Of a stretch of DNA of 64,000 bases, positions 25,961-39,863 are shown piece by piece. A program made the position numbers and the translations under genes. Location of the stretch: the NCBI GenBank assembly GCA_022072055.1, contig JAJVIK010000019.1, positions 62,001 to 126,000 of the forward strand, given 5' to 3'. This stretch comes from a bacterium. GTDB lineage: Bacteria > Hinthialibacterota > Hinthialibacteria > OLB16. The notes below the pieces were generated by a model. That model was not told the DNA's origin. It ran no database searches and saw nothing but the letters and a program-made list of their open reading frames with translations. The stretch's first letter is position 1. Every line of letters begins with the position of its first letter.

Positions 25961-26103
25961 GGCATCCATCTCCCTGAAACGAAAATCGCTCCCCTCCCAG
26001 CCGAGGCCTATCGTAGGGAAGTCCGGGTCGAATGGGGAGAGGAGTGGCGTCACCGGAAACATGTCCACAAACCCGGCTCGATCTGTCATCCTGTGCTCCG
26101 AAC

Positions 26104-28530
26104 ATGAACGCCTCCGACATCCCGACCGTTGAGCGCGAATCGCGAGGGGGAGAGCCATCCGGCGAGACACGCCGCGCCCGGTCGTTTTTCCGGACTCTCC
26201 TCAAGACCATCCTGTTGGTCCTGGGCATCCCGGTTCTCCTGGTCATTCTCGGAATTTTGTTTGTCGTCGGGGTCTATTGGAATGTGGTCCGAGTGTCGCC
26301 GGGGGGCCTTGGAACCGCCATTAAGGCGGGCGAGCGCGGGGCTCTTGTGAATCCCTTCATCGGCACGGGCGGAGTCCCATGGGTCTGCGCCTACAACAGC
26401 CCGGGGGCAACCCTGCCCTTCGGGATGGTTCGTCTCGCGCCGGACACCGCCTCGATCCTGGTCGACCAACAGTGCCTGAGCGCCGCCGGGTACTATTTCG
26501 GGGATAACAAGATCGTGGGCTTCAGCCACACCCGCCTCCTGGGCGCGGATGCCTTGGAGGGGGGACACTTCCGGATCACCCCCGCGATGGAATCGGGAGT
26601 GGAGTCGGCCTGTCGGAAGGAGCGTTTCGCGCGCTTCTCGCATCGGGAGGAGACCGCCTTCCCAGGCTACTACGCAGTCCGTCTGCCCGACGAGGAGATC
26701 CTGGTGGAGCTCACCGCCACGACCCGGGTCGGCGTTCACCGTTACACCTTCGGCGGAAAAGAGCGGCCGCATCTCTTGCTTGATGTCACCAGCTCGCTGG
26801 GGGATGTCCGGACTGAAAGCGGAACGCTGCGGATCCTTCCGGAGGCGCGGGAGATTGAAGGTTCGGTGCGAACCTTCGGATCGTTCGCTCGTCGCTATGG
26901 CGGCCTGGATGTCTATTTCGTGGCGCGGTTCGACCGGCCTTTTGCCGACCATGGGGTTTGGACCGGAGACCGGTTCTCGCGCGACCAGACCGAGGGGCAA
27001 GGGGCGCGGGTGGGCGCAGACCTGTGTTTCGCATGGGAAGGGACCTCGCGCGTGGTTGAGGCGAGAGTCGCGCTTTCGTATGTCTCGGTGGAGAACGCGC
27101 GAGCGAACCTGGAGGCGGAGGCCGGGGGGGCAGAACCCTTCGAGGAGGTTTTCATGGCGGCGCGTGATGCCTGGGAGGACCGACTCGCCAGGATTCGCGT
27201 CGAGGGCGGAACCGAGCGCGAGCGGCGCATCTTCCACACCGCGCTCTACCGGGCATTTCAGATGCCGACCACCTTCACGGATGTGAACGGGGAATACCGG
27301 GGTTTCGACAAGCAAGTCCACCGCGCGGAGGGTTTTCAGTACTACACCGACTTTTCCCTGTGGGACACCTTTCGAACCGTGCATCCGCTGTACAACCTGA
27401 TCGCGCGCGAGGACGCCCGCGACATGATGGTTTCACTGGTGGAGATGGCCAGCGCGGGAGGCGGCCTCCCGCGCTGGCCCGCCGGGTGCGGATACACCAA
27501 CTGCATGATGGGGACCCCGGCGGACATGGCGGTCACCGAGGCGTATCTCAAGGGGATTCGGGATTTCGATGTCCGCGCGGCTTACGACAGGATGCGCCAC
27601 ACCGCCCTGGTCGGTCGTCCGGAGGGTTCGCGGTTCTCCGGACGAGAAGGTCTGGATTGGCGCCTCAAGTTGGGGTACTGCCCTTCGGACAAGATGTCGG
27701 AGGCGGTTTCCAAGGACCTGGAGTACGCCTACGCGGACCACTCGCTCTCGCTGCTGGCGCGCGAGTTGGGCGAGGAGGAGGATGCCGCGCGGTTTGAGGA
27801 GAACTCCCGTTCCTATCGCCACTTGTGGAACCCGGAAACCCAGTACTTCCAACCCCGGGACAGCCAAGGCAGATTCTTCGCGGAGTTCCGTCCTCTCGCA
27901 TTGAGTTACACGGACTCCGGCAGGAAATACACCGATGACTATGTGGAGGGGAGCGCGCTGCAGTGGCGTTGGGGGGTCCCTTGGGACCCGGAAGACCTGG
28001 TCACTCTCTTCAAGAGCAAGGAGTATTTTGTCAACGAGTTGAACGCATTCTTCGAGGGATCGCGCCGCTGGGTGGGGTGGTGGCACCCCGGATCGCACTA
28101 TTGGCATGGGAACGAGCCGGACCTCCATGCGGTGTATCTGTTCAACGCCGCGGGGCGCCCGGACCTCACCCAGAAGTGGGTTCGAGCGCTTCTGGAAGCC
28201 AAGTACAGCGATGGCCCGGTGGGGCTGGACGGAAATGATGACGGCGGCACTCTTTCCGCCTGGTATGTTTTCAGCGCCCTCGGGTTCTACCCCATCGCGG
28301 GGACCACTCGCTATGAGATCGGCTCGCCGCTGTTCGAGCGCGCGGAGATCGACATGGGAGCCCTTAGGATCCTTGAGGTGATCGTGGAGAACACGGGGCC
28401 CGATAATGTTTATGTGGAGGCGGTCCACCTGAACGATGTCCCGCTGGAAGAGCACCGCTTCACGCACGACGCCATTCGGGGGGGCGGAACCCTCCGGTTC
28501 AAAATGAGAAAACAACCGACTGGGAACTGA
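26104..28530 (+). CDS. GH92-family alpha-mannosidase, membrane anchored
   Basis: An 808-residue exo-acting, calcium-dependent alpha-mannosidase of family GH92. The full domain is visible: VNPFIGTGG at the start, GFSHTRLLGAD, ETAFPGYYAV, the YRAFQMPTTFTDVNGEYRG block, YTDFSLWDTFRTVHPLYN, GGLPRWPAGCGYTNCMMGTP, HGNEPDLHAVYLFN and GTLSAWYVFSALGFYP. Instead of a cleavable signal peptide, it begins with 34 polar residues and then a strong hydrophobic helix (about 38-60), so it is probably an N-in membrane anchor with the enzyme outside the inner membrane. Substrates of the family are alpha-mannosides from N-glycans or mannans. The gene stands alone between a divergent gene and tRNA-Cys. Confidence 0.93.
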   Translation: MNASDIPTVERESRGGEPSGETRRARSFFRTLLKTILLVLGIPVLLVILGILFVVGVYWNVVRVSPGGLGTAIKAGERGALVNPFIGTGGVPWVCAYNSPGATLPFGMVRLAPDTASILVDQQCLSAAGYYFGDNKIVGFSHTRLLGADALEGGHFRITPAMESGVESACRKERFARFSHREETAFPGYYAVRLPDEEILVELTATTRVGVHRYTFGGKERPHLLLDVTSSLGDVRTESGTLRILPEAREIEGSVRTFGSFARRYGGLDVYFVARFDRPFADHGVWTGDRFSRDQTEGQGARVGADLCFAWEGTSRVVEARVALSYVSVENARANLEAEAGGAEPFEEVFMAARDAWEDRLARIRVEGGTERERRIFHTALYRAFQMPTTFTDVNGEYRGFDKQVHRAEGFQYYTDFSLWDTFRTVHPLYNLIAREDARDMMVSLVEMASAGGGLPRWPAGCGYTNCMMGTPADMAVTEAYLKGIRDFDVRAAYDRMRHTALVGRPEGSRFSGREGLDWRLKLGYCPSDKMSEAVSKDLEYAYADHSLSLLARELGEEEDAARFEENSRSYRHLWNPETQYFQPRDSQGRFFAEFRPLALSYTDSGRKYTDDYVEGSALQWRWGVPWDPEDLVTLFKSKEYFVNELNAFFEGSRRWVGWWHPGSHYWHGNEPDLHAVYLFNAAGRPDLTQKWVRALLEAKYSDGPVGLDGNDDGGTLSAWYVFSALGFYPIAGTTRYEIGSPLFERAEIDMGALRILEVIVENTGPDNVYVEAVHLNDVPLEEHRFTHDAIRGGGTLRFKMRKQPTGN

Positions 28531-28540
28531 GCGGGAAGGT

Positions 28541-28614
28541 TGGAGGCGACGCCCGGATTCGAACCGGGGATAAGGGCTTTGCAGGCCCCTGCCTTACCAC
28601 TTGGCCACGTCGCC
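28541..28614 (-). tRNA. tRNA-Cys (GCA anticodon)
   Basis: A 74-base cloverleaf on the minus strand with encoded CCA. Acceptor GGCGACG pairs with CGTCGCC; the T arm is CCCGG-TTCGAAT-CCGGG; the anticodon loop CTGCAAA reads GCA. The discriminator base is T, the identity element of bacterial tRNA-Cys. Confidence 0.96.
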
Positions 28615-28632
28615 TCGGTCAAGGAGCGCAAA

Positions 28633-28661
28633 CAGGTATCGAAACCGGTCCCCCTTGTCAA
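28633..28661 (-). promoter_or_regulatory. Putative promoter of tRNA-Cys
   Basis: Minus-strand TTGACA (28656-28661) and a weak -10 TACCTG (28633-28638) are 17 bases apart, with the -10 about 19 bases before the tRNA 5' end. The -35 is perfect and the -10 is poor. Confidence 0.4.
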
Positions 28662-28675
28662 GGCAAGCCCGCTCG

Positions 28676-28969
28676 CTAGGACTCCTCTTCCTCTTCCACG
28701 AATTCAACCTCGGTTTCACCCGGAAGAACAGTCTGGATGACCTCGATGGCTCGGTCGGCATCTTCCTCAAGGACTTGGATCACCCCGAAGTCATGGCGCC
28801 CATCCTGGATTCCGAGGAGAATCCGATCCTGGTCGGACAAAAAGACAAAGTGGATCCCGGCGTCCGACAGGGCCTCCTGGACAATTGCCGCCTCAATTTC
28901 ATCCTCGGGGTTGAAGACCTCGACCAGTGGCTTTTCCGGCGCTTCGGAGTGGGCAGTTTCGTCATTCAT
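28676..28969 (-). CDS. DUF2007-like small protein
   Basis: A 97-residue acidic protein. The middle (PLVEVFNPEDEIEAAIVQEA, then LSDAGIHFVFLSDQD) resembles the DUF2007 fold, a small ferredoxin-like domain called a putative signal-transducing protein in some family descriptions. The C-terminus is a run of Glu. I chose ATG 28969, eight bases after GGAGG; an upstream in-frame ATG at 28990 is possible. Function is unknown. It sits alone between tRNA-Cys and the LegB-like gene. Confidence 0.65.
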   Translation of the reverse strand: MNDETAHSEAPEKPLVEVFNPEDEIEAAIVQEALSDAGIHFVFLSDQDRILLGIQDGRHDFGVIQVLEEDADRAIEVIQTVLPGETEVEFVEEEEES

Positions 28970-29142
28970 GGCGGTATCCTCCGTTTTCATTGAGCCGGGG
29001 AGCGCCCCGGACCGTCACCTTTCTTGCCGAAAGGATTATAGCAGATAGCTTGGTTCAGGTTCAGGCGCGTGGGATTGCCCGACTGTTCGTGGGCTTGTAC
29101 GCTTGAAATCGCCGGGCTGCAAGGGGAATGCTCCACTTTTCC

Positions 29143-30135
29143 ATGAACTGGACGGGAACAAAGGTTTTGGTCACCGGCGCGGGAGGCTTCATCGGGAGCC
29201 ACCTTGCCGAGGCGCTCCTCACGGCCGGGGCTGAGGTGACCGCCATGATCCGGTACACCTCCCGGGGCGATTGGGGGAACCTGGAGCGCCTTCCCTCGGA
29301 CAGGAAAGGCTCCCTTCGGGTGTTGGCCGGGAACATCGAGGATTCCGATTTCGTGGATCGCGCGGCGGCGGGCCACGCGGTCGTCTTCCATCTCGCCGCG
29401 CTGATCGGCATCCCCTACTCCTACACCGCGCCAAGGAGCTACATCCGCACAAATGTGGAGGGGACTCTCAATATCCTGGAAGCGGCGCGTCGCCACGGAG
29501 TCCGGCGCGTGATCCACACCTCCACCTCCGAGGTCTACGGGTCGGCCCGGTTCACTCCGATGACCGAAGACCACCCCCTTCAGGCCCAATCCCCTTACGC
29601 GGCCGGCAAGATCGGCGCGGACCAGCTCGCGCGGAGCTATCACCTTTCCTTTAACCTTCCGGTGTCGATCCTCCGCCCCTTCAACACCTATGGCCCGCGC
29701 CAATCCGCGCGCGCGGTAATCCCGACAATCATCTCCCAAGCGCTTTCCGGAGAACGTGTCCGGGTCGGCTCGCTCACCCCCGTCCGAGACCTGCTCTTTG
29801 TCGAGGACACGGTTCAGGGGTTCCTGCGGATGGCGGAGTCCGAGGAGGCCGTGGGGGAAACAGTACACATCGGAACGGGACGCGGAACCTCCATCGGAGA
29901 CCTCGCGCGGACCCTGCTCACGCAGATGGGGAAGGGCCAGGTGGAGATGGTCCAGGAGGAATCCCGCAAACGACCTGAAGAGAGCGAGGTGACCCGGCTG
30001 ATCTGCGACGCAAGCCGCGCAAGGAATCTGATCGGATGGAGACCGAACGTTCCCCTGGAGGAGGGCCTGCGACGCACAATCGAATTTGTTTCAAATCATC
30101 TCGACCTTTATCGCCCGACGGAGTATGCCCTATAG
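29143..30135 (+). CDS. LegB-like NAD-dependent 4,6-dehydratase (extended SDR)
   Basis: A 330-residue nucleotide-sugar dehydratase. It has the NAD-binding Rossmann motif TGAGGFIGSH, FHLAALIGIPYSY, the SDR triad region STSEVYGSARFTPM with SPYAAGKIGADQ (catalytic Tyr-x3-Lys), and RPFNTYGPRQSARAVIPTII. These phrases match LegB, which forms UDP-4-keto-6-deoxy-N-acetylglucosamine in the legionaminic acid route, more closely than RmlB or GMD. The next gene, 10 bases on, is a sugar-nucleotide transferase, supporting a pathway for an activated deoxysugar. The ATG at 29143 starts close to the Rossmann fold; 29128 is an in-frame alternative with poor ribosome-site spacing. Confidence 0.82.
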   Translation: MNWTGTKVLVTGAGGFIGSHLAEALLTAGAEVTAMIRYTSRGDWGNLERLPSDRKGSLRVLAGNIEDSDFVDRAAAGHAVVFHLAALIGIPYSYTAPRSYIRTNVEGTLNILEAARRHGVRRVIHTSTSEVYGSARFTPMTEDHPLQAQSPYAAGKIGADQLARSYHLSFNLPVSILRPFNTYGPRQSARAVIPTIISQALSGERVRVGSLTPVRDLLFVEDTVQGFLRMAESEEAVGETVHIGTGRGTSIGDLARTLLTQMGKGQVEMVQEESRKRPEESEVTRLICDASRARNLIGWRPNVPLEEGLRRTIEFVSNHLDLYRPTEYAL

Positions 30136-30144
30136 GAGCCCATC

Positions 30145-30855
30145 ATGCAGGCAGTGATCCTCGCCGGAGGGAAAGGGAGCCGCCTCCAACCATACACCAC
30201 CGTGCTGCCCAAGCCGCTCATGCCGGTGGGGGACATGCCGATCCTGGAAATCATCCTGCGGCAGCTCGCCAAGGCCGGATGTCGGACCGTGTTCCTTACC
30301 GTGGGGAGGGCCCTGCCGCTCTTCCGCGCGGTGTTCGCGGAGGGGGAGCGTCTCGGCCTCAAAATCCGCTACGCCCTCGAGGAGGAGCCGCTCGGCACCG
30401 CGGGCCCCATCGCCTCCCTGGTCGATGACCTGGAGGAGGACTTCCTGGTCATGAACGGAGACCTGCTGACCACCCTGGATTACCGTCGCTTCTTCGAGTT
30501 TCACCGCGAGCAGGGCTGCGCGGCGACGCTCGCCGCTCACGAGCGCTCCTCGCTGATCGATTTTGGGGTCCTGGAGCCGGACTCTGAGGGCCGCCTGGTG
30601 AACTATATCGAGAAGCCCACTTACACTTTCACCGTGAGCATGGGGGTTTATGCCATGCGCAAGAGCCTTGTGGCTCCACACCTCGGAATAGGGGAGCGAT
30701 TGGATTTCCCCGACCTGATCCGTCGCTTGCTCGACTCGGGGACTGTGGTGCGCTGCCACCATCCGGACTGCTTCTGGCTCGACATCGGCAGGCTGGATGA
30801 CTTCCAGACCGCGCAAGAGGTGTTTGAGAAGAGACGGGCGGAGTTTCTGCCCTAG
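30145..30855 (+). CDS. NDP-sugar pyrophosphorylase (nucleotidyltransferase)
   Basis: A 236-residue enzyme that joins a sugar 1-phosphate to a nucleotide. The signature LAGGKGSRLQPYTTVLPKP is the NTP-binding motif of the RmlA/ManC family, followed by EEPLGTAGPI and MNGDLLT with the metal-binding Asp. Only the catalytic domain is present, with no left-handed beta-helix or CBS domains. Nucleotide and sugar cannot be read from sequence; next to a LegB-like dehydratase, a LegF/PtmE-like role is plausible. The ATG has AGGAG seven bases upstream. It ends the two-gene unit. Confidence 0.85.
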   Translation: MQAVILAGGKGSRLQPYTTVLPKPLMPVGDMPILEIILRQLAKAGCRTVFLTVGRALPLFRAVFAEGERLGLKIRYALEEEPLGTAGPIASLVDDLEEDFLVMNGDLLTTLDYRRFFEFHREQGCAATLAAHERSSLIDFGVLEPDSEGRLVNYIEKPTYTFTVSMGVYAMRKSLVAPHLGIGERLDFPDLIRRLLDSGTVVRCHHPDCFWLDIGRLDDFQTAQEVFEKRRAEFLP

Positions 30856-30897
30856 CGCACGCGACAGGATGGACCGTAAACAGCGTGATCGCCCATC

Positions 30898-31743
30898 TCA
30901 CTCCAGGCGCTTGGATGGGTTTCGCAACACCCCAATCCCTTCGATCTCAACTTCGAGCACATCCCCAGGGTTGAACGAATCAACCGGCGGAGGGGTGCCC
31001 ATGAAGATCAGGTCGCCGGGCTCGAGGGTGATGTAGCGGCTCAGGAAGCTCACGGTCTCCGCGACTGTGAAGTTGTAATCGCGCGTGTTGCCTTTCTGCT
31101 TCACCTGGCCGTTCACCCGCAATTGAATGTCCAAATCGCCCGGATCGAGGCCCGACACAATGTAGGGGCCGCAGGGGGCGAAGGTGTCGCACCCTTTCAC
31201 TCGCAACCATTGGACATCCTGGCTCCAATCCCCGCCGCTCACATCGTTCCCGCAAGTGTATCCAAGGACATGCGCCGGGGCCTTTTCGACCGGGACATCC
31301 TTGGCGCGCTTGCCGATCACCGCCACAAGTTCGGCTTCGTAAAGGGGGCGCGCGAGGTCGCGTGGGATCTGAATGGCCTCCTCGGGACCAATCACTCCAG
31401 TGGGGGACTTGAAGAAAAGCTGAGGATGGGGCGGCTTGGGCGCGTCCGGCTTGTCCGCGGAACGATAATTGCCCGCCGCTCCAAACACCTTCGAGGGAGC
31501 GCATGGCGCAAGCAATCGAATCTCGGAGCGGGACACCAGGTTTTCGGTCGGGTTCCACTCTCCGAAGAGGTCTCCTTCCAGTAGCCGAATCCGATCCCCT
31601 TCGACAATTCCGAAGGAGACCTTGCCTCCCACCTCAACGCGCGCGAACTTGCGGACCTCGTCCGCTTGGGATAGGGCTTGATGGACGAATAGGAAGAGAA
31701 CCGCCAGGAAGTGGTTCATGAGTTTGAAGCGGGCTGGACACAT
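30898..31743 (-). CDS. Fumarylacetoacetate hydrolase-family protein with signal peptide
   Basis: A 281-residue FAH-family protein. The domain shows FGAAGNYRSADK, PLYEAELVAVIGKRAKDV with the metal-ligand Glu pair, GYTCGNDVSGGDWS, and the substrate-lid region GPYIVSGLDPGDLDIQLRVN. Family members hydrolyse, decarboxylate or isomerise acylpyruvate-type substrates in the cytoplasm. Unusually, residues 9-27 are hydrophobic with a positive lead (FKLMNHFLAVLFLFVHQALS), which reads as an export signal. The ATG at 31743 has AAGGGGA about nine bases upstream; the internal ATG at 31719 lacks a ribosome site but also keeps the hydrophobic segment. Divergent from the RbsD/FucU gene. Confidence 0.85.
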   Translation of the reverse strand: MCPARFKLMNHFLAVLFLFVHQALSQADEVRKFARVEVGGKVSFGIVEGDRIRLLEGDLFGEWNPTENLVSRSEIRLLAPCAPSKVFGAAGNYRSADKPDAPKPPHPQLFFKSPTGVIGPEEAIQIPRDLARPLYEAELVAVIGKRAKDVPVEKAPAHVLGYTCGNDVSGGDWSQDVQWLRVKGCDTFAPCGPYIVSGLDPGDLDIQLRVNGQVKQKGNTRDYNFTVAETVSFLSRYITLEPGDLIFMGTPPPVDSFNPGDVLEVEIEGIGVLRNPSKRLE

Positions 31744-31841
31744 GCTTGGAATCCCCTTTGCGATCCCCCCTTGATGGGGGCTGTTCTTGGAATACCCTTG
31801 GAGAGGTTACCGAAAACTCCACAACGTGGAAGGAGACTGAG

Positions 31842-32258
31842 ATGCTCAAGGGCAAGCTGCTCCATCCGGAAATCCTCGCGGCGCTGGCCGGCGCGGGGCA
31901 TGGCTCCAAGGTCCTGATCGCGGATGGAAATTTCCCGCATTCCACCAAGGCCGCGCCGGGAACGGCACTGGTGTATCTGAATCTTTCTCCCGGAAGGGTG
32001 CTGGTCACCGAGACGCTGGAGGCGATCCTTTCGGTGGTTCCGGTGGAAGCCGTGGAGGTCATGCAACCCGCGGATGGAAAGGACGCTCCCATTTTCAAGG
32101 AGTTTCAGAAGCTGGTCGGAAAGAAGATCCCGTTCCATCGCCTGGAACGGTTTGCATTCTATGACGCCGTGGGGGACCCCGATGTGTGCCTGCTGGCGGC
32201 GACGGGCGATCAACGGCTGTACGCCAACATTCTATTGACCATTGGGGTGGTCGCCTGA
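31842..32258 (+). CDS. RbsD/FucU-family sugar mutarotase
   Basis: A 138-residue protein of the RbsD/FucU family, which interconverts anomers or ring forms of ribose or fucose. The opening MLKGKLLHPEILAALAGAGHG contains the catalytic His region, followed by VLIADGNFPHST and, near the C-terminus, the EFQKLV and DAVGDPDVCLLAATGDQRLYAN elements. The Ala/Gly wording and length fit FucU-type proteins. The ATG has a good AAGGAG site. Sugar specificity is open. The 3' end overlaps the convergent glycosyltransferase gene by 27 bases. Confidence 0.85.
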   Translation: MLKGKLLHPEILAALAGAGHGSKVLIADGNFPHSTKAAPGTALVYLNLSPGRVLVTETLEAILSVVPVEAVEVMQPADGKDAPIFKEFQKLVGKKIPFHRLERFAFYDAVGDPDVCLLAATGDQRLYANILLTIGVVA

Positions 32259-34580
32259 AGCGGGGCCGGTTCGCGACGCGAGTTCCGCGGGATCGGCGGG
32301 GAGGGTCCCCTTGTCCACCACGCGCTCCATCGAATCAATCGCTTCGAACCGGCACGAGTCGGCGGTGAACTCCAAGAGGAGCGCGATGGTGGTCTGATCC
32401 TCGCCCGCGAGGAATTCGGAGGCTGCGCGGTTGAGCGTCCCGGGCGCTACCTTCCCTCCCGAGCCGGCGATGAAATAGTGTATCCCATGTTGAGGCCGGA
32501 TCCGTTGATAGAAGTGATGGTGCCCGGAAAGCACGATGTCCGCCCCGCCTTCGATCAGGATCGGCTCGATCTGCTCGCGAAGGTTGGGGAGCGGGGTCTC
32601 GCGCTTGAGGCTTGAGCCATAGAGCGGGTGATGCATGGCCACCACCTTCCAGGATGCCGGGCTGGTGGCGAGCTCGCGCGCGAGCCAGGAGCGCTGAGCT
32701 CGGTCCGCGGCCAGGGTGGTGGAATCCAGGAAAAAAACCTCGACAAACCCATCCCCGAAGACGCGCGAGTAGTATCGCCGCCCCCTCATCCCCAGAAGCG
32801 GATGGTTGATCTGGAAGCCCGCGAAACCGCCGCTGACATCCTGGTTCCCGAGGACCGCGAAAAACCGCACCCCGTTGCGCAGCAGTGGATTGTAAGGGCG
32901 CTCGAAATGCTCCTCGAAGTATCGCGGGTCCCCCTCGAAGGCGAGGTTGTCCCCCAGCAGGATCACCCCATTCAGGGTCCGCTCTTCATCCACATGGTAG
33001 AGCGCCGAACCAAGCTGAATCTGAAGGCTGTCCCCGGAGCGCGTGTCCCCCATCGCGGCCAGGCTGACCGAGTGACGGTCCTCGGGGGCCGGAGGGCAAA
33101 TCAGGAGCCGGTGACCGCTGGGGCCAGGTTTGTCCTCGAATGGAAAGCCGGTCCGGGAGAGACGTTCGAGCACGGGTGTATAGTCCCTCGGATCACGGAC
33201 CAGGAAGACATGGTATTCCCGGCTGGTCGGGAGTTCATGGACTTCGCTCTCGAAGGTTTCCGGCATGAAAAAGGTGGGGTAGGGGTCGGTTCGAGTCGTG
33301 ACCCACTCGACATTGCCCCCGCTGTAGAAGCTCAGGCCATGACGAATTCCGTTCACAACAACCAGCTCGCGCCGCCCTTCGGGGATCAAGTCCTTGAGGC
33401 TGTTCCAGAACGCCCGGGTGTCCTTGTCGGTGGGCCAGTGGGCCATGGTCAGCCGGGAAATCACGAGGACCAGACACCAGACAGCGAGCGCCCCCGCGCG
33501 CGCGCCGTTCCACCGCGGTTCAAACCACGCGGGCTTCCAGGACAGCCAACATCGAGCCGAGAGAATCGCGACCGGGGCGAAAAGGGGAAGGATGTACAAA
33601 ACCAAGCGCGACTTGGCGACAAAGAACACCGCCAGCGGAACAAGGACCCAGAGCGCCAAGAAAAGGGTCGGCTGGTTGGCCCCGCTTCTAAGATCCCGCC
33701 GCCATTCGGCGAAAGACTCTCGCATCGCGCCAATCTTCGCGAACCACGCCACGGACCAGGGTAGCGATCCGACCACCAGAATCGGGAGATAGATGACGAA
33801 CGGTTTGTAGAACTCGGGATTACGGTCATATTTCTCGGTGAACAACCGTCCCATGATCTGATTGTCCCAAGCATAGGCCAGCGCGCCCGGGACAACCTGG
33901 TGGATCAGAACATACCAACTCCCTCCGATCGCGGCGGCGGCGGTGAGCGCCGGGAGGGTCTCCCAGCGCGCGAGGAAGCGCGCCACCTGACCGGTGAGCA
34001 GGAGATACAGACCCATCGGCCCCAGAAGCACCAGGATGGCTGGTCCTTTGGCCAGGATCCCCAATCCCAGGCAGAGACCGAGGGAGAATTTCCAAAGGAC
34101 CTCCGAACCCCTCTTTGGAGCGGACACCGCCATCCAGAAGGAGGCCATGGAGGCGGTGGTCCATATCGCCAGTGGCGTGTCGGGGGTCACCATGTTGGCG
34201 GCCACAAAGGGGACCGGCATGGTGAGGTAACAAAGCGCTGAAACCGCGCCGAGACGGTTCCCCCCAAGACTCCGTCCAAGAAGCCCCACCACCAGGACAG
34301 TGAGCGAAAGCCACAGCGCATTGCCGAGGCGAGCCGCCCATTCATTAAAGCCAAAGAGGACCATCCCAGAAGCCGACCCCCAATAGACAAGAGGAGGCTT
34401 CTCCAGGAACGGGCGCAGGTTGACCTGCGGGACAGTCCAGTCCCCGCTCTCAACCATCGAGCGCGCGGCGCCAATGTAATACCCCTCGTCCGGCTCCCAG
34501 ACCCCACGGGTTCCCTGGAATGCCAAAGCCAAGGCGAGCGTCAACGCCGCCAGCGCCAATGCAACGCGGAAAGTCGACAT
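32232..34580 (-). CDS. Glycosyltransferase (ArnT/PMT-like) fused to a metallophosphatase domain
   Basis: A 782-residue protein with two parts in one continuous frame. Residues 1-490 or so form a GT83/ArnT-like integral membrane glycosyltransferase with many hydrophobic helices; the N-terminal catalytic motif GVWEPDEGYY and FLEKPPLVYW are present. Such enzymes use polyprenyl-phosphate sugars. From about residue 501 a calcineurin-like metallophosphoesterase domain follows: MGDTRSGD, LLGDNLAFEGD, LGNQDVSGG, AMHHPLYGSS and SGHHHFYQR. The usual GNH[DE] motif reads GNQD, so the His that commonly acts in catalysis is missing. The start at 34580 puts the first helix directly after the ATG; a longer frame exists but adds unrelated sequence. 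Confidence 0.85.
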   Translation of the reverse strand: MSTFRVALALAALTLALALAFQGTRGVWEPDEGYYIGAARSMVESGDWTVPQVNLRPFLEKPPLVYWGSASGMVLFGFNEWAARLGNALWLSLTVLVVGLLGRSLGGNRLGAVSALCYLTMPVPFVAANMVTPDTPLAIWTTASMASFWMAVSAPKRGSEVLWKFSLGLCLGLGILAKGPAILVLLGPMGLYLLLTGQVARFLARWETLPALTAAAAIGGSWYVLIHQVVPGALAYAWDNQIMGRLFTEKYDRNPEFYKPFVIYLPILVVGSLPWSVAWFAKIGAMRESFAEWRRDLRSGANQPTLFLALWVLVPLAVFFVAKSRLVLYILPLFAPVAILSARCWLSWKPAWFEPRWNGARAGALAVWCLVLVISRLTMAHWPTDKDTRAFWNSLKDLIPEGRRELVVVNGIRHGLSFYSGGNVEWVTTRTDPYPTFFMPETFESEVHELPTSREYHVFLVRDPRDYTPVLERLSRTGFPFEDKPGPSGHRLLICPPAPEDRHSVSLAAMGDTRSGDSLQIQLGSALYHVDEERTLNGVILLGDNLAFEGDPRYFEEHFERPYNPLLRNGVRFFAVLGNQDVSGGFAGFQINHPLLGMRGRRYYSRVFGDGFVEVFFLDSTTLAADRAQRSWLARELATSPASWKVVAMHHPLYGSSLKRETPLPNLREQIEPILIEGGADIVLSGHHHFYQRIRPQHGIHYFIAGSGGKVAPGTLNRAASEFLAGEDQTTIALLLEFTADSCRFEAIDSMERVVDKGTLPADPAELASRTGPASGDHPNGQ

Positions 34581-34801
34581 GCGGATCCTGTCAGGCCCGA
34601 TCTGAAAACATCGGATATCTCCCCCCCCCAAAGCAGGGAGCCTAACCCCCCGGTTCCATTGTATCTGAGATTCCGCTTCGGAACACCGCCCCACGCTTCG
34701 TTCGTGACTAACGGGCCCGGCGCAATGGACAAAAGCACATTAATCCGGTACCATAATACTGTCTTATGCCGCCGTTTCGGCGGCCACCGTGGAGGTTCTA
34801 T

Positions 34802-35947
34802 ATGTGGACCATCCAGCCGCGAGGTTTGGGAGATTTGCTCGAGGCCCTCAGGAACAGAGGGTATCGCGTGGTCGGTCCGGTGGTCCGAGACGGGGCGATC
34901 TGTTACGAGGACCTTGGCTCGATTGAAGACCTTGCTCTCGCGTGGTTGGATGAACAGGAACCGGGGAACTATCGACTAACCGGCTCCGGCAATGGCGACT
35001 TGTTCTCCTACTCCCCTGGGGCGCACACCTGGAAGAAATTCCTTCACAAGCCCTCGGTAACCTTGTGGCGCGCCACGAAGGATCAGAAGGGCCTCCATCT
35101 GAAGGAGGAACCGACCGCCGAGGGCAAGGTGGCGCTATTCGGCGCAAGACCGTGCGAGCTGGCGGCCATTGCCATCCAAGACCGGGTCTTTCTGGAGGGT
35201 CCGTTCGTGGATTCCTTCTACGCGGCCGCCCGGAAGGAAATGTTCGTGGTGGCCCTCAACTGTTCCCACCCCTCGAAATCCTGTTTCTGCGTCTCCATGA
35301 AGACAGGCCCACGCGCCGCCACCGGCTTTGACCTGTGTTTGACCGAAATCCACCCGAATGGGGAGGCCGAGCTCGTGGTCGAGGTCGGCAGCGAGACCGG
35401 AGGGTTAATCCTCGCCGACCTCCAGCGCCGGGAAGCCACCGAGAAGGACCTCGAGGCTGTCCGGAAGACCCTTGAGGAGGCCGAACAGAGGGTTGAGAGG
35501 AGTCTGGACACCGAGGGAATCCAGGGTCTGTTTGACCGGAGTTTTGAGAGCCCACAGTGGGATGATGTCGCGCGGAGGTGCCTGGGCTGCGCCAACTGCA
35601 CGATGGTCTGCCCCACTTGCTTCTGCACCACGGTGGTGGAGTCCTCCGACCTGGCCGGAGCGGAGGCCACTCGGACAAGGATCTGGGATTCCTGTTTCAC
35701 CAAGGATTTCACCTACATCCACGGGGGGAGTGTCAGACCGTCCGGGTATTCCAGGTACCGCCAATGGATCACCCACAAGCTGGCGAACTGGATCGAGCAG
35801 TTCGGAACCTCGGGGTGCGTGGGCTGTGGCCGATGCATCACCTGGTGTCCGGTCGGAATCGACATCACCGCGGAGGTCGAAGCCCTGCGCGCGAGGGAAA
35901 GAACAGGATCCGGATCGGGAGGATCGAGTCATGAAGGAAATGCGTAA
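34802..35947 (+). CDS. hydB: NiFe hydrogenase group 3b, beta subunit (Fe-S)
   Basis: A 381-residue iron-sulfur subunit of the cytoplasmic NADP-linked (sulf)hydrogenase, homologous to subunit A of anaerobic sulfite reductase. The C-terminal part carries two 4Fe-4S signatures: [14 protein letters not shown] and [14 protein letters not shown]. The N-terminal domain includes [12 protein letters not shown] and [11 protein letters not shown], additional Cys clusters of this family. It conducts electrons between the flavin subunit and the NiFe dimer. The ATG at 34802 follows GGAGGT by six bases; an in-frame ATG at 34766 is less likely. First gene of the six-gene operon; its 3' end overlaps the next gene by 17 bases. 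Confidence 0.92.
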
Positions 35948-36416
35948 TCTGTTGGCGGAACATCCCTTCTTCGAGAGCTTGTCGCCGACCCACTTGGACC
36001 TGGTGGCCGGGTGCGGAAAGAACGTGGTCTTCGAGGCGGGAAGACAGATCTTCCGCGAGGGGGAGCCGGCGGAGTACTTCTACATCATCCGTCACGGGAA
36101 AGTGGCGATTGATGTCTACGCCCCTGGATTGGGGAACATGTCGATCCAGACCCTCGGAGAAGGTGAGGTTCTGGGCTGGTCGTGGCTCGTGCCTCCGTAC
36201 GAGTGGAGATTCGACGCGCGCGCGGTGGAGCTGACTCGGGCCGTTGCGTTGGATGGGAACTGTCTGCGCGGCAAGTGCGAGGGGGACAATGCCTTAGGGT
36301 TTCAGCTTCTGAAGAAATTCAGCCAGGTGATGGCCCAACGGCTGGAGGCCACGCGCATGCAATTGCTCGACATGTACGGAACGAGTATGAAGGGCGGAGG
36401 GAGGAAGCTCTCGTGA
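35931..36416 (+). CDS. Cyclic nucleotide-binding domain protein in the hydrogenase operon
   Basis: A 161-residue protein made of a single cNMP-binding (CRP-type) beta-roll with no DNA-binding helix-turn-helix. The roll is visible as [20 protein letters not shown] and [20 protein letters not shown]; a C-terminal helix with repeated charged residues follows. Its position between the beta and gamma subunits suggests a role in hydrogenase regulation or as an accessory subunit; this is inference. The ATG at 35931 overlaps the hydB stop by 17 bases, and its own TGA overlaps the next GTG start (GTGA), so translation is tightly coupled. Confidence 0.85.
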
Positions 36417-37249
36417 TCGCCGCCGCGGACCCCATGGTCCCCAACCTGCACCGCATTCAGAAAGTGACCCAGGAGACCTCGGACACCTTCACCCTTGCCC
36501 TCGCGCCCTCCTGCGGGCGCAAGTGTCCCGCGTTTCGGCCCGGACAGTTCAACATGCTGTATGTGTTCGGAGTGGGTGAGGTCCCGATCTCCATCAGCGG
36601 GGATCCCGCGACTCCGGAAACTCTTGTGCACACCACCCGCGCGGTGGGCGCGGTCACCGCCGCGATGAAGAAGATGCGACCCGGGGACCAGCTCGGTGTT
36701 CGGGGCCCGTATGGAACGGAGTGGCCGGTGGCGGAGGCTCATGATCGGGACGTGGTCATCGTCGCGGGTGGAATCGGCCTGGCTCCCCTTCGGCCGGCCT
36801 TGTATTCGCTCCTCAATCATCGCGAACGGTACGGTCGAGTGGTTCTCCTGTATGGAACGCGAAGCCCCGAGGACATCCTTTATCGCACCGAGATCCAGAA
36901 GTGGCGCTCCCAGTTTGACCTGGATGTCCATGTGACCGTGGACCGCGCGACCGGGAAGTGGCGCGGAAATGTGGGGGTGGTGACCTCCCTGATCCCCAAG
37001 GCCCCCTTCGATCCCTATCACGCCACCGCCTTCGTGTGCGGGCCGGAGATCATGATGCGTTACACAATCCTCGCCCTGCTCAAGAGAGGGGTTGAGAAGG
37101 ACTCGATCCATCTGTCGATGGAGCGAAACATGAAGTGCGCGGTGGGGTTCTGCGGACACTGCCAAATCGGACCGCTGTTTGTGTGCCGGGATGGGCCGGT
37201 GTTCGGATATCCGCGCCTGGAAAAGCTGCTGGACAAGCGGGAGCTCTAG
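36413..37249 (+). CDS. hydG: NiFe hydrogenase group 3b, gamma subunit (flavin/NADP)
   Basis: A 278-residue ferredoxin-reductase-type subunit that binds FAD and NADP(H). The FAD-binding [21 protein letters not shown] and nucleotide-binding [15 protein letters not shown] motifs are present, and the C-terminal Cys cluster [17 protein letters not shown] binds a 2Fe-2S centre, as in dihydroorotate dehydrogenase electron-transfer subunits. It couples NADPH to the NiFe centre. The start is a GTG at 36413 overlapping the previous stop. The next gene starts one base after its stop. Confidence 0.92.
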
Positions 37250-37250
37250 C

Positions 37251-38033
37251 ATGGTCGCCAAGCCCAAACCCAAACTCGCGGTCTGGAAGTTCGCTTCCTG
37301 CGATGGCTGCCAGCTCTCGCTCCTCGACTGCGAGGAGGAGCTCCTCGCGATCACCGGGATGGTGGATATCTGCTATTTCCCGGAGGCCACCCGCGCCGAG
37401 GTCAAGGGCCCCTATGATCTTTCCCTGGTGGAAGGCTCGATCACCACGCCGCACGACGCCGAACGGATTCACAAGATTCGGCGCTCCTCGCGGACATTGG
37501 TCACCATCGGCGCCTGCGCCACGGCGGGAGGAATTCAGGCGCTCCGAAACTTCAAGGATGTCAAGACTTTCATCCCCCTCGTGTACGCCCAGCCCTCCTA
37601 TATCGAGACCTTGAACAAGTCCACTCCGATCTCGGAGCATGTCTTCGTGGATTTCGAGCTGCGTGGGTGTCCCATCGACAAGGGGCAACTGGTGGAGGTC
37701 CTGAACGCCTATTTGTGGGGCAGGAAACCCGCGATTCGTCCCCATTCAACGTGCATCGAGTGCAAACTGGCCGGGAATGTGTGCGTGATGGTGGCCAAGG
37801 GTATCCCCTGCCTGGGGCCGGTCACGCACGCCGGGTGCGGCGGACTTTGTCCCACCTATCAGCGGGGATGCTATGGATGCTTTGGGCCGAAGGAGGACTC
37901 AAACACCCGTTCGCTTGCCGCGCGGCTCGCCTCCCCGATTGGGATGGAGGAAGACGACTTGGTTCGTCTCTTCCGTTCCTTCAACGCCTACGCGGAGGAT
38001 TTCCGGAAGGAGAGCGAAGCCCATGAGGACTAG
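37251..38033 (+). CDS. hydD: NiFe hydrogenase group 3b, delta (small) subunit
   Basis: A 260-residue small subunit that carries three iron-sulfur clusters relaying electrons to and from the NiFe site. The proximal cluster motif is [12 protein letters not shown] with [10 protein letters not shown]; the C-terminal region has [29 protein letters not shown] and RGCYGCFGP, giving the remaining cluster ligands. No signal peptide is present, in keeping with a cytoplasmic bidirectional enzyme. Start ATG at 37251; the 3' end overlaps the large-subunit gene by 11 bases. Confidence 0.94.
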
Positions 38034-39315
38034 AACGGTTCGAGTGGACTATCTCGCGCGGGTCGAGGGGGAGGGCGCCTTCCACATCAAGGTGAAAGAC
38101 AACCGCGTGGTGGACTCGAAATTCAGAATCTTCGAGCCTCCCAGGTTTTTCGAGGCCTTTCTGCGCGGGCGAAGGTTCGAGGAGGCCCCGGACATCACCG
38201 CCCGCATCTGTGGGATTTGCCCCATCGCTTACCAGAGCAGCTCGGTTCAGGCGATGGAGGAGATCTGTGGGGTTAAGGTCGCCGGCCCGCTCCGGGATTT
38301 GCGCCGACTGATCTACTGCGGGGAATGGATCGAAAGCCATGTTTTGCATGTCTACATGCTCCACCTTCCCGATTTCCTGGGGTATGAGGACGCGATTCGC
38401 CTGGCTAAAGATCACCCGGATGCGGTCAAGCGCGGACTACGGCTCAAGAAACTCGGCAACGACTTGGTGAGAGTGCTTGGAGGTCGTGAGATCCACCCGA
38501 TCAACATGCGGGTCGGGGGGTTTTACCGAACCCCATCGCGGAAGGAGTTTGAGACCTTTCTCCCGGAGCTTGAATGGGCGCGCGAGGCTGCCCTGGAAAC
38601 CATCCGCTTGGTTTCCCATCTCGAGTTCCCCAAGTTCGAGCGGGACTATGAGTTTGTGTCGCTGCGCCACGGGGACGAATACCCCATGAACGAGGGTCGT
38701 CTGGTTTCCAACAAGGGGTTGGACATTCCCCTTTCGGAGTATTTCGATCACTTTGAGGAGCGCCATGTGTCGCACTCCAACGCCCTGCAGTCCGTGCTCA
38801 AGGCAAGGGGGGCGTACCATGTGGGGCCGCTCGCGCGGTACAACCTGAATTTCGACCGACTGTTTCCCTCGGTCCAACAGGCCGCGCGGGATGCGGGGCT
38901 TGCGGAGACATGTCGGAATCCGTTCCAAAGCATCATCGTCCGGAGCGTGGAAACCCTCCAGGCCGTGGAGGAGGCTGTCCGGATCATCGAGGGCTACCAG
39001 CCGCCGGAAACTCCCGCGGTCAGAGTGCAACCGCGCGAGGGGGTCGGCCATGGCTGCACCGAAGCCCCTCGCGGAATCTGCTTCCACCGCTACCGGATCG
39101 ACTCCAAGGGGATTATCCGGGACGCGCGGATTATTCCACCCACCTCGCAGAATCAGGTCACCATTGAGGAGGACCTTCTCGACCTGGTCTCAACGAAGCT
39201 GGCGCTGCCCCAGGAGAAGCTCACTTGGCTGTGCGAGCAGGCGATCCGGAACTACGATCCCTGCATCTCCTGCGCCACTCACTTCCTCAAGCTCACCGTG
39301 GAGCAAGTCACCTGA
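38023..39315 (+). CDS. hydA: NiFe hydrogenase group 3b, alpha (large) subunit
   Basis: A 430-residue catalytic subunit. The two Cys pairs that bind the NiFe centre are present: [11 protein letters not shown] in the N-terminal third and [13 protein letters not shown] at the C-terminus. The few residues after the last Cys pair end in LTVEQVT, typical of the tail that is removed by the maturation protease, encoded next. The length and motif wording fit group 3b enzymes, which catalyse reversible H2 oxidation with NADP and can reduce sulfur. It overlaps hydD by 11 bases. Confidence 0.94.
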
Positions 39316-39341
39316 GGAGCCTTCCGGAGGAGCCGCCCCCC

Positions 39342-39863
39342 ATGCCGCCGTCCGCTGTCCTGATCCTTGGAGTCGGTAACGAATGGCGTGGGGATGACGC
39401 TATCGGGGTGTTGCTCGCGCGTCGTCTTCGGGAGCGCGCCCCCCCCGGGGTGGAGGTGAAGGAGCACAGTGGTGAGGGGGCCGGCCTCATGGAGGAATGG
39501 GTCGGTCATGATGCGGTGATCATCCTGGATGCGGTCCGGTCCGGTTCCCCTCCGGGAACCATCCACCGACTGGATGCCTCCCGAGAAGCAATCCCCTCGA
39601 GATTCTTCCACGCCAGCAGTCATGCGTTCAGTGTCGCGGAGGCCGTGGAACTCTCCCGCGCGCTGGGGGCGCTGCCCGAGGTGGTTCTACTCTATGGGAT
39701 CGAGGGGCGGGAATTCGCGGCAGGCGCGGGGCTTTCCGAGGAAGTCCGCATGGGCGGCGCTGTGGTGCTGGAGGAGGTGATGGCTCTTATTGAATCGCAC
39801 GCAGGCCGACTCGCCGTCAAATCCCGTACGGGCACAGGTACAGGAAGCGCGAGCCGGTCTTGA
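39342..39863 (+). CDS. Hydrogenase maturation protease
   Basis: A 173-residue M52-family endopeptidase that removes the C-terminal tail of the large subunit after nickel insertion. Key elements are LGVGNEWRGDDAIGV with the nickel-binding Glu, the Asp in ILDAVRSG, and SSHAFSVAEAVEL with the His ligand. The C-terminus has an extra basic/Ser tail (GTGTGSASRS) that overlaps the convergent sppA gene. GGAGG lies before the ATG. Genes hypABCDEF are not in the window. Confidence 0.9.
   Translation: MPPSAVLILGVGNEWRGDDAIGVLLARRLRERAPPGVEVKEHSGEGAGLMEEWVGHDAVIILDAVRSGSPPGTIHRLDASREAIPSRFFHASSHAFSVAEAVELSRALGALPEVVLLYGIEGREFAAGAGLSEEVRMGGAVVLEEVMALIESHAGRLAVKSRTGTGTGSASRS

Follow-up and report, generated by a model that had tools for sequence, protein, structure and literature searches.

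The closest described systems to the protein treated here are ArnT (PDB 5EZM/5F15), a glycosyltransferase with a GT-C membrane core and a periplasmic C-terminal domain, and the mammalian-type purple (tartrate-resistant) acid phosphatases (PAPs; TRAcPs). In rhizobia, lipid A modification involves the phosphatases LpxE and LpxF, the galacturonic acid (GalA) transferases RgtD and RgtF and the bactoprenyl-phosphate-GalA synthase RgtE; for Aquifex aeolicus, the available text of the same report describes genes of the Rgt type in the absence of any resembling lpxE or lpxF, and its authors suppose "other types of unknown phosphatases" (PMC7663294). In this study, we analyzed a stretch of 64,000 nucleotides (the window) from a bacterium of the Hinthialibacterota (assembly GCA_022072055.1, contig JAJVIK010000019.1, positions 62,001 to 126,000). 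One gene of the window encodes an ArnT/PMT-like transferase fused to a PAP-fold domain. This fusion family was seen in three phyla and combines known enzymes; the window holds one locally altered copy.

The open reading frame (ORF) 32232-34694 on the minus strand, with an ATG at 34580 and the stop at 32232, encodes 782 residues without an internal stop codon; residue numbers refer to this protein unless stated otherwise. Its parts are:

32232..34580, (-) strand: whole gene (782 aa), GT-C (ArnT/PMT-like) glycosyltransferase, putative periplasmic domain and PAP-fold domain
33438..34580, (-) strand: GT-C membrane part, residues 1-381, with D31/E32/Y35, K61, D134 and R245 kept (hydropathy; modelled helices up to residue 381)
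33096..33419, (-) strand: soluble alpha/beta domain, residues 388-495, where ArnT has its periplasmic C-terminal segment (modelled secondary structure, partly of low confidence)
32271..33068, (-) strand: PAP/TRAcP-fold metallophosphatase-like domain, residues 505-770 (predicted structure, fold match 1ute_A)

The initial annotation had described an ArnT/PMT-like transferase and a calcineurin-like domain in one continuous frame, and this observation was confirmed. Pfam matches were obtained to PMT (residues 6-195; 1.5e-22; 80.8 bits, cut-off 22.7), PMT_2 (residues 61-217; 2.4e-18; 67.3 bits, cut-off 26.1) and Metallophos (residues 537-690; 1.9e-8), and a phmmer search of PDB sequences matched residues 13-352 to ArnT (5ezm) and residues ~622-715 to mammalian PAPs. 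The PAP half, modelled from a 74-row alignment, reached a mean predicted local distance difference test score (pLDDT) of 91.6 and superposed on pig PAP (1ute_A) with Z 34.5 and a root mean square deviation (rmsd) of 2.0 over 259 aligned residues. The full-length model was weaker (pLDDT 75.3; predicted template modelling score 0.56); it places membrane helices up to residue 381, the small soluble domain (388-495) and the PAP fold in this order, with its PAP half matching 1ute (E 3.5e-15) and its membrane half ArnT 5f15 (E 5.3e-10, rmsd 9.9).

With ArnT, the protein shares the GT-C core, the DE, EKPP, D134 and R245 positions and the C-terminal domain following the core; unlike ArnT, it has ~285 extra residues that form the PAP fold. 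The PAP domain should lie in the periplasm, because the C-terminus of ArnT was placed there by PEGylation and an ArnT-PhoA fusion was active there, as far as the accessible text goes (PMC5377068). According to the same text, ArnT of B. cenocepacia requires Y43, K69 and R254, and Y35, K61 and R245 stand at these places by motif position (RYA, EKP and the second-loop Arg); this comparison covered three of four residues, the fourth, E493, lying outside the mapping. Judged from these residues and the likewise retained D31, E32 and D134, the transferase half is probably active. By profile, the protein is an ArnT/PMT-like GT-C transferase, but it falls below the NCBIfam cut-off of ArnT proper (152.7 bits against 567).

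The fusion is real and more than a chance event, because the window genome (G000) holds a full-length paralogue, the sister copy L002, which is 59% identical over residues 2-766, and because in-frame relatives occur in other genomes. The same domain order, which the initial annotation had suggested searching for, was found in other genomes of the class and in two further phyla. Within the class, five proteins carry it (the window copy, L002, G001, G002 and the divergent G005); the G002 protein has its N-terminus cut by a contig end, and in G001 a frame change interrupts the gene within the PAP domain. In another phylum, the fusion of G041 is 43% identical over residues 10-759 of L002. The search of 40 genomes of a further phylum, that of G025, gave 13 PAP matches at E <= 1e-30; in each of them, simple hydropathy placed 3-10 hydrophobic, membrane-like segments ahead of the PAP domain. 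Contig ends truncate several of these ORFs, and a stop falls within two of the 13 matches. Among the nine run through Pfam, three had PMT_2 above the cut-off, one had GT87, one had PMT_2 below the cut-off and one matched an in-house glycosyltransferase (GT) profile only; the remaining three of the nine gave no GT match. The named survey of relatives comprises the best 80 of 277 confirmed ones; of 47 viral pattern matches, none was confirmed, and titles and abstract openings of the open-licence literature searched held no description of a GT-PAP fusion.

The concern that the junction might be an assembly artefact stood for G001, where the frame is broken, and is ruled out for the fusion as such by the paralogue and the in-frame fusions elsewhere. 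The other concern, that homologues might be two separate genes, applies to one relative, G037: here a separate PAP gene adjoins a GT gene, and its product falls inside a six-row clade with fused PAPs (support 100/95).

Several proteins at the edge of this set were recorded as well. L193:5434-8133 (G048) is the fusion of GT87 and PAP, with a stop codon inside the match. L192:4562-6826, L200-L202 and L204 carry the PAP domain behind 3-7 hydrophobic segments without a GT profile match (Pfam for L192 and L201), the partner possibly being an unfamiliar or cut-off membrane domain. L117:7092-8849 is an acidobacterial protein of 586 aa with 304 residues without assignment ahead of its PAP domain.

In a PAP tree of 83 rows, the seven GT-linked PAPs then known formed one clade (100/99). 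After addition of rows from the phylum of G025, a branch with support 100/97 separated 20 membrane-linked PAPs from 57 others, which are stand-alone except for L117; for this tree, 17 rows from well-sampled groups were thinned beforehand. The duplicates L045, L086 and L083, as well as L111 and the wrong-frame ORF L203 2-1333(+), were dropped from the PAP rows. In the GT tree, the window copy, L002, G001 and G002 formed one clade (100/100), nested in a nine-row clade (100/98) that also includes the fused GT of G041, G025 and, from the class, three unfused GTs; the fused GT of G005 was placed elsewhere. When the six fused GTs known at that point were constrained to a single clade, the approximately unbiased (AU) test rejected this arrangement (p 0.00067), although long branches call for caution. 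Taken with the GT87 partner in G048, this rejection suggests pairings of the PAP module with at least two GT-C lineages.

For PAPs, the motifs DxG, GDx2Y, GNH[ED], Vx2H and GHxH have been published (accessible part of PMC2553084). By alignment, the corresponding positions of the window copy are:

33039..33047, (-) strand: motif I, D512-T-R514 (GDTR) against the consensus DxG
32940..32954, (-) strand: motif II, GDNLA 543-547, with Ala547 at the metal-ligand Tyr of GDx2Y
32838..32849, (-) strand: motif III, GNQD 578-581, with the Asn ligand retained and Gln in place of the active-site His
32619..32636, (-) strand: motif IV, MHHPLY 649-654, ligand His650 kept
32508..32525, (-) strand: motif V, GHHHFY 686-691, ligands His687 and His689 kept

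Thus, GNQD and the motifs GDN (543-545), MHH (649-651) and GHHH (686-689) are present as had been claimed, and two departures come in addition, namely GDTR in motif I and Ala547 at the Tyr of motif II. The window copy thereby deviates from motifs I, II and III (DTR, GDNLA, GNQD) and agrees with IV and V (VAMH, GHHH). The metal site is only partly intact: the fold persists with six of its seven metal ligands, the lost one being the Tyr of motif II. The mammalian-type enzymes share this fold and these six ligands but have DxG, GDx2Y and GNH[ED] and are not joined to a membrane transferase.

GNQD is not a family feature. GNH occurs in 83 of 84 aligned PAP rows, including L002 (GNHD), and GNQ in the window copy only (Q580, codon CAG at 32843-32841); three of these rows duplicate others, and GNH was favoured by row selection because most rows were found with a pattern including GN[HQ]D. 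In 14 usable further rows, GNH was found 14 times and GNQD never. The other departures are shared: in the window copy, L002, G001 and G002, hereafter the window's family, Gly of motif I is replaced by Arg and Tyr of motif II by Ser or Ala in all four, with six of seven metal ligands kept throughout and GNHD retained in the other three. Among stand-alone PAP rows, 73 of 75 have the Tyr, versus 9 of 20 non-redundant membrane-linked rows. At 38 columns conserved in stand-alone PAPs, which themselves depart on average 0.85 times, each member of the window's family shows 8-9 departures (the count for G001 being affected by its frame change), G037 six and G005 three. All five canonical motifs are kept in G005 and in the fusions L193, L194, L195 and L198 from the phylum of G025. 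A non-purple TRAcP (aTRAcP) has likewise lost the motif II Tyr, but there Tyr is replaced by His and GNH is kept, as far as the source text extends (PMC2553084), in contrast to Ala/Ser with Arg in motif I in the window's family and GNQ in the window copy.

Decay of the PAP half is unsupported. Between the window copy and L002, nonsynonymous (dN) and synonymous (dS) divergence in the PAP part was 0.30 and 1.24 (dN/dS ~0.24), dN/dS in the GT part was ~0.23, both by NG86 and rough since dS exceeds 1, and the terminal branches leading to them have similar lengths (0.35 and 0.31). From the family-wide motif losses, the column departures and this ratio, we conclude that the phosphatase site is derived in the window's family with the domain still under constraint, and that the Gln is an extra change confined to one copy. 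As the motif II Tyr, the motif I Gly and the GNH His are gone and six ligands remain, the window copy has probably lost much or all phosphatase activity and is probably a weak or non-catalytic, putatively phosphate-binding version; L002, with GNHD, may retain the predicted activity. The wheat phytase variant H229A was dropped as a model for GNQ, since His229 lies in motif 4 of PAPhy and not in GNH (available text of PMC9073318).

ArnT-like transferases are joined to phosphatases more than once, and the two phosphatase folds involved, calcineurin-like and PAP2, are unrelated to each other. Among 27 GT-bearing loci of the class, nine have a phosphatase fused or adjoining the GT or its GT2/LAB_N neighbours: the five PAP fusions, two PAP2 fusions with an adjacent metallophosphoesterase (MPE), one PAP in a row of GT, GT2 and LAB_N genes, and one divergent MPE. 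The fraction 9/27 overstates the rate because a fused query found the fused loci and some loci are close relatives; three weak GT matches in G004 and G005 (E 2e-5 to 1e-4) were left out of the count. In 20 control windows of 20 kb (~305 ORFs), PAP, MPE and PAP2 gave no match; these windows were hand-chosen, 18 of them sharing a contig with a GT or LAB_N locus and the remaining two lying on one that carries a PAP-like gene, and the MPE and PAP2 profiles were built from two sequences each, so that distant members were missed in both sets.

In G002, at a PMT other than the fused one, genes for PMT, GT2, LAB_N and a PAP with Pur_ac_phosph_N follow each other, and in G012 the MPE gene is divergent from its GT. 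Outside the class, one family of another phylum pairs the GT with a fused PAP (G041), a separate PAP (G037) or PAP2 (G042). The row in G041 consists of GT2, LAB_N, PMT and PMT-PAP, the best NCBIfam match of the GT2 being ArnC (172.8 bits, cut-off 529). A partial fusion adjoins a GT2 in G062, and a PAP2-like ORF lies just ahead of the PMT domain in G059. In L131:9198-11596 (G042), the PAP2 ORF stands ~60 bases before the PMT ORF, whose counterparts in G037 and G041 have a PAP as partner. G008 and G013, which belong to one genus, carry PAP2-PMT fusions of 858 and 825 aa (L041:6782-10426, L040:5595-9252), each adjoined by a calcineurin-like phosphatase gene. Two loci were not counted: L048:44-3017 of a Blastocatellia metagenome-assembled genome, where a PMT gene lies just upstream of a PAP that falls among the stand-alone ones, and L166 (G007), where PAP2 is near GT2 and no GT match reached the threshold.

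We infer the roles on lipids from the directly observed fusion, conservation and recurrent GT-phosphatase linkage and from the predicted folds. The protein would be a periplasm-facing, polyprenyl-phosphate-sugar-dependent GT-C glycosyltransferase of the ArnT type, whose C-terminal extension would set the PAP-fold domain in the periplasm beside the lipid acceptor. In the wider family, the phosphatase and transferase halves would share one envelope lipid as substrate, the former most likely stripping a phosphate from a lipid A-type acceptor and the latter putting a sugar where it had been; the window copy would bind the phosphorylated substrate with little or no hydrolysis, and L002 may stay active. 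Acceptor dephosphorylation with sugar replacement is preferred because of the recurrent joining of GTs to phosphatases, the rhizobial Lpx/Rgt precedent and the presence of LpxC and LpxK in G000. In rhizobia, phosphatases and a polyprenyl-sugar-dependent transferase are likewise described in lipid A modification (PMC7663294, in the text available). LpxE and LpxF are separate proteins of the PAP2 superfamily; in the family treated here, a domain of the PAP fold is part of the transferase polypeptide, and the acceptor is putative. We assign this reading as a whole, including a mostly binding role of the window copy, a probability of about 0.4.

Several observations weigh against it. The Gln depends on one base (CAG instead of CAC/CAT) in one assembly. 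Unfused relatives of the same GT exist in the class (G010, G006, G003), and GTs without PAP in G048 and G059 match L002 at 41% and 43% (residues 10-497 and 8-500), spanning the whole GT and periplasmic part; with such close unfused relatives, the PAP half is evidently not needed for transfer. By the profiles used, 18 of the 27 class loci have no phosphatase nearby. Neither GT2 nor LAB_N was found among the seven window neighbours run through Pfam, and LAB_N, present in seven of 14 class genomes, was not found in G000, G001, G008 and G013, the last two being the genomes with PAP2-PMT fusions. Of the PAP2 partners, those of G042 (58 bits) and G008 (fused domain, 35.8 bits) match undecaprenyl-diphosphatases best, L209 matches LpxE best, and that of G007 matches PgpB, LpxF and others about equally, with all these scores far below the cut-offs.

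Since two PAP2 partners point to undecaprenyl-diphosphatases, if below cut-off, a role on the carrier side is a serious rival, albeit a doubtful one in our view: the phosphatase half would hydrolyse the polyprenyl-phosphate-sugar or polyprenyl (di)phosphate and so free or recycle the carrier after or instead of transfer. In B. subtilis, the metallophosphoesterase UpsH reportedly releases undecaprenyl phosphate from polymers linked to undecaprenyl diphosphate; UpsH is, however, cytoplasmic and acts on diphosphates, according to the accessible text (PMC11898649). Donors of ArnT-type enzymes are generally monophosphates, whose transfer product requires no dephosphorylation, and a free hydrolase beside the transferase would presumably waste donor. 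Since that product, polyprenyl monophosphate, is the reusable form of the carrier, the coupling of sugar transfer to removal of polyprenyl phosphate, proposed in the initial annotation, is judged less likely. Its other proposal, a binding module, is plausible for the window copy, where three of five PAP motifs have departed and six of seven ligands are kept, so that its interpretation is partly supported overall. Extended to the whole of the window's family, a non-catalytic binding or scaffold domain is a possible explanation that we hold with reserve. The 8-9 departures among 38 columns and the shared Arg and Tyr loss speak for it, as does the close fold match (Z 32.5) of Plasmodium GAP50 (3tgh), titled an inner membrane complex anchor and not known to be an active phosphatase, which is similar in carrying a PAP fold in a membrane-complex protein and differs in being eukaryotic and without transferase. 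On the other hand, six metal ligands are kept in all four proteins, three of which retain GNHD, and the five canonical motifs persist in G005, L193, L194, L195 and L198.

A base-calling error behind GNQD, which would make the window copy an ordinary family member, is improbable: a single base separates CAG from a His codon, but the reading frame is clean and the other derived motif changes of the family recur in independent genomes. Even less probable is the removal of a phosphate from the sugar of the polyprenyl-linked donor before transfer. MPE, PAP, PAP2 and GT2s resembling polyprenyl-sugar synthases do cluster with some GTs, and the processing of mycobacterial decaprenyl-phosphoryl-phosphoribose is a precedent for dephosphorylation of a donor sugar, but no sign of a phosphorylated donor sugar was seen in these genomes, in which no search was aimed at one. 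A bolder form of the preferred acceptor reading, in which GT-C-PAP fusions in general would be one-polypeptide phosphate-for-sugar exchangers acting on an envelope lipid and the window copy a pseudophosphatase that arose after duplication and uses its retained metal site to receive the phosphorylated acceptor, is rather unlikely in our estimation.

If phosphate-for-sugar exchange on a lipid A-type acceptor is correct, fused PAP domains would be an answer to the lipid A phosphatases missing in some bacteria, and PAP-type domains would be candidates for the phosphatases supposed for Aquifex. The fusion ties two common enzyme classes together in one predicted periplasmic protein, turning the service of the phosphatase to the transferase into a testable question, and the loss of the Tyr shows that a PAP fold can persist under constraint without its hallmark iron ligand.

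In the window, the fusion gene stands alone between a FucU-like gene on one side and an opposite-strand iron-sulfur gene on the other. The region 26032-32258 contains a glycoside hydrolase of family 92, followed by GDP-mannose dehydratase-like, nucleotidyltransferase, FAA hydrolase and FucU-like genes. On the other strand, a group of ORFs at 34766-39863 begins ~185 bases upstream of the fusion gene with the iron-sulfur protein (the one member run through Pfam), followed by ORFs that apparently resemble NiFe-hydrogenase subunits and a maturation protease.

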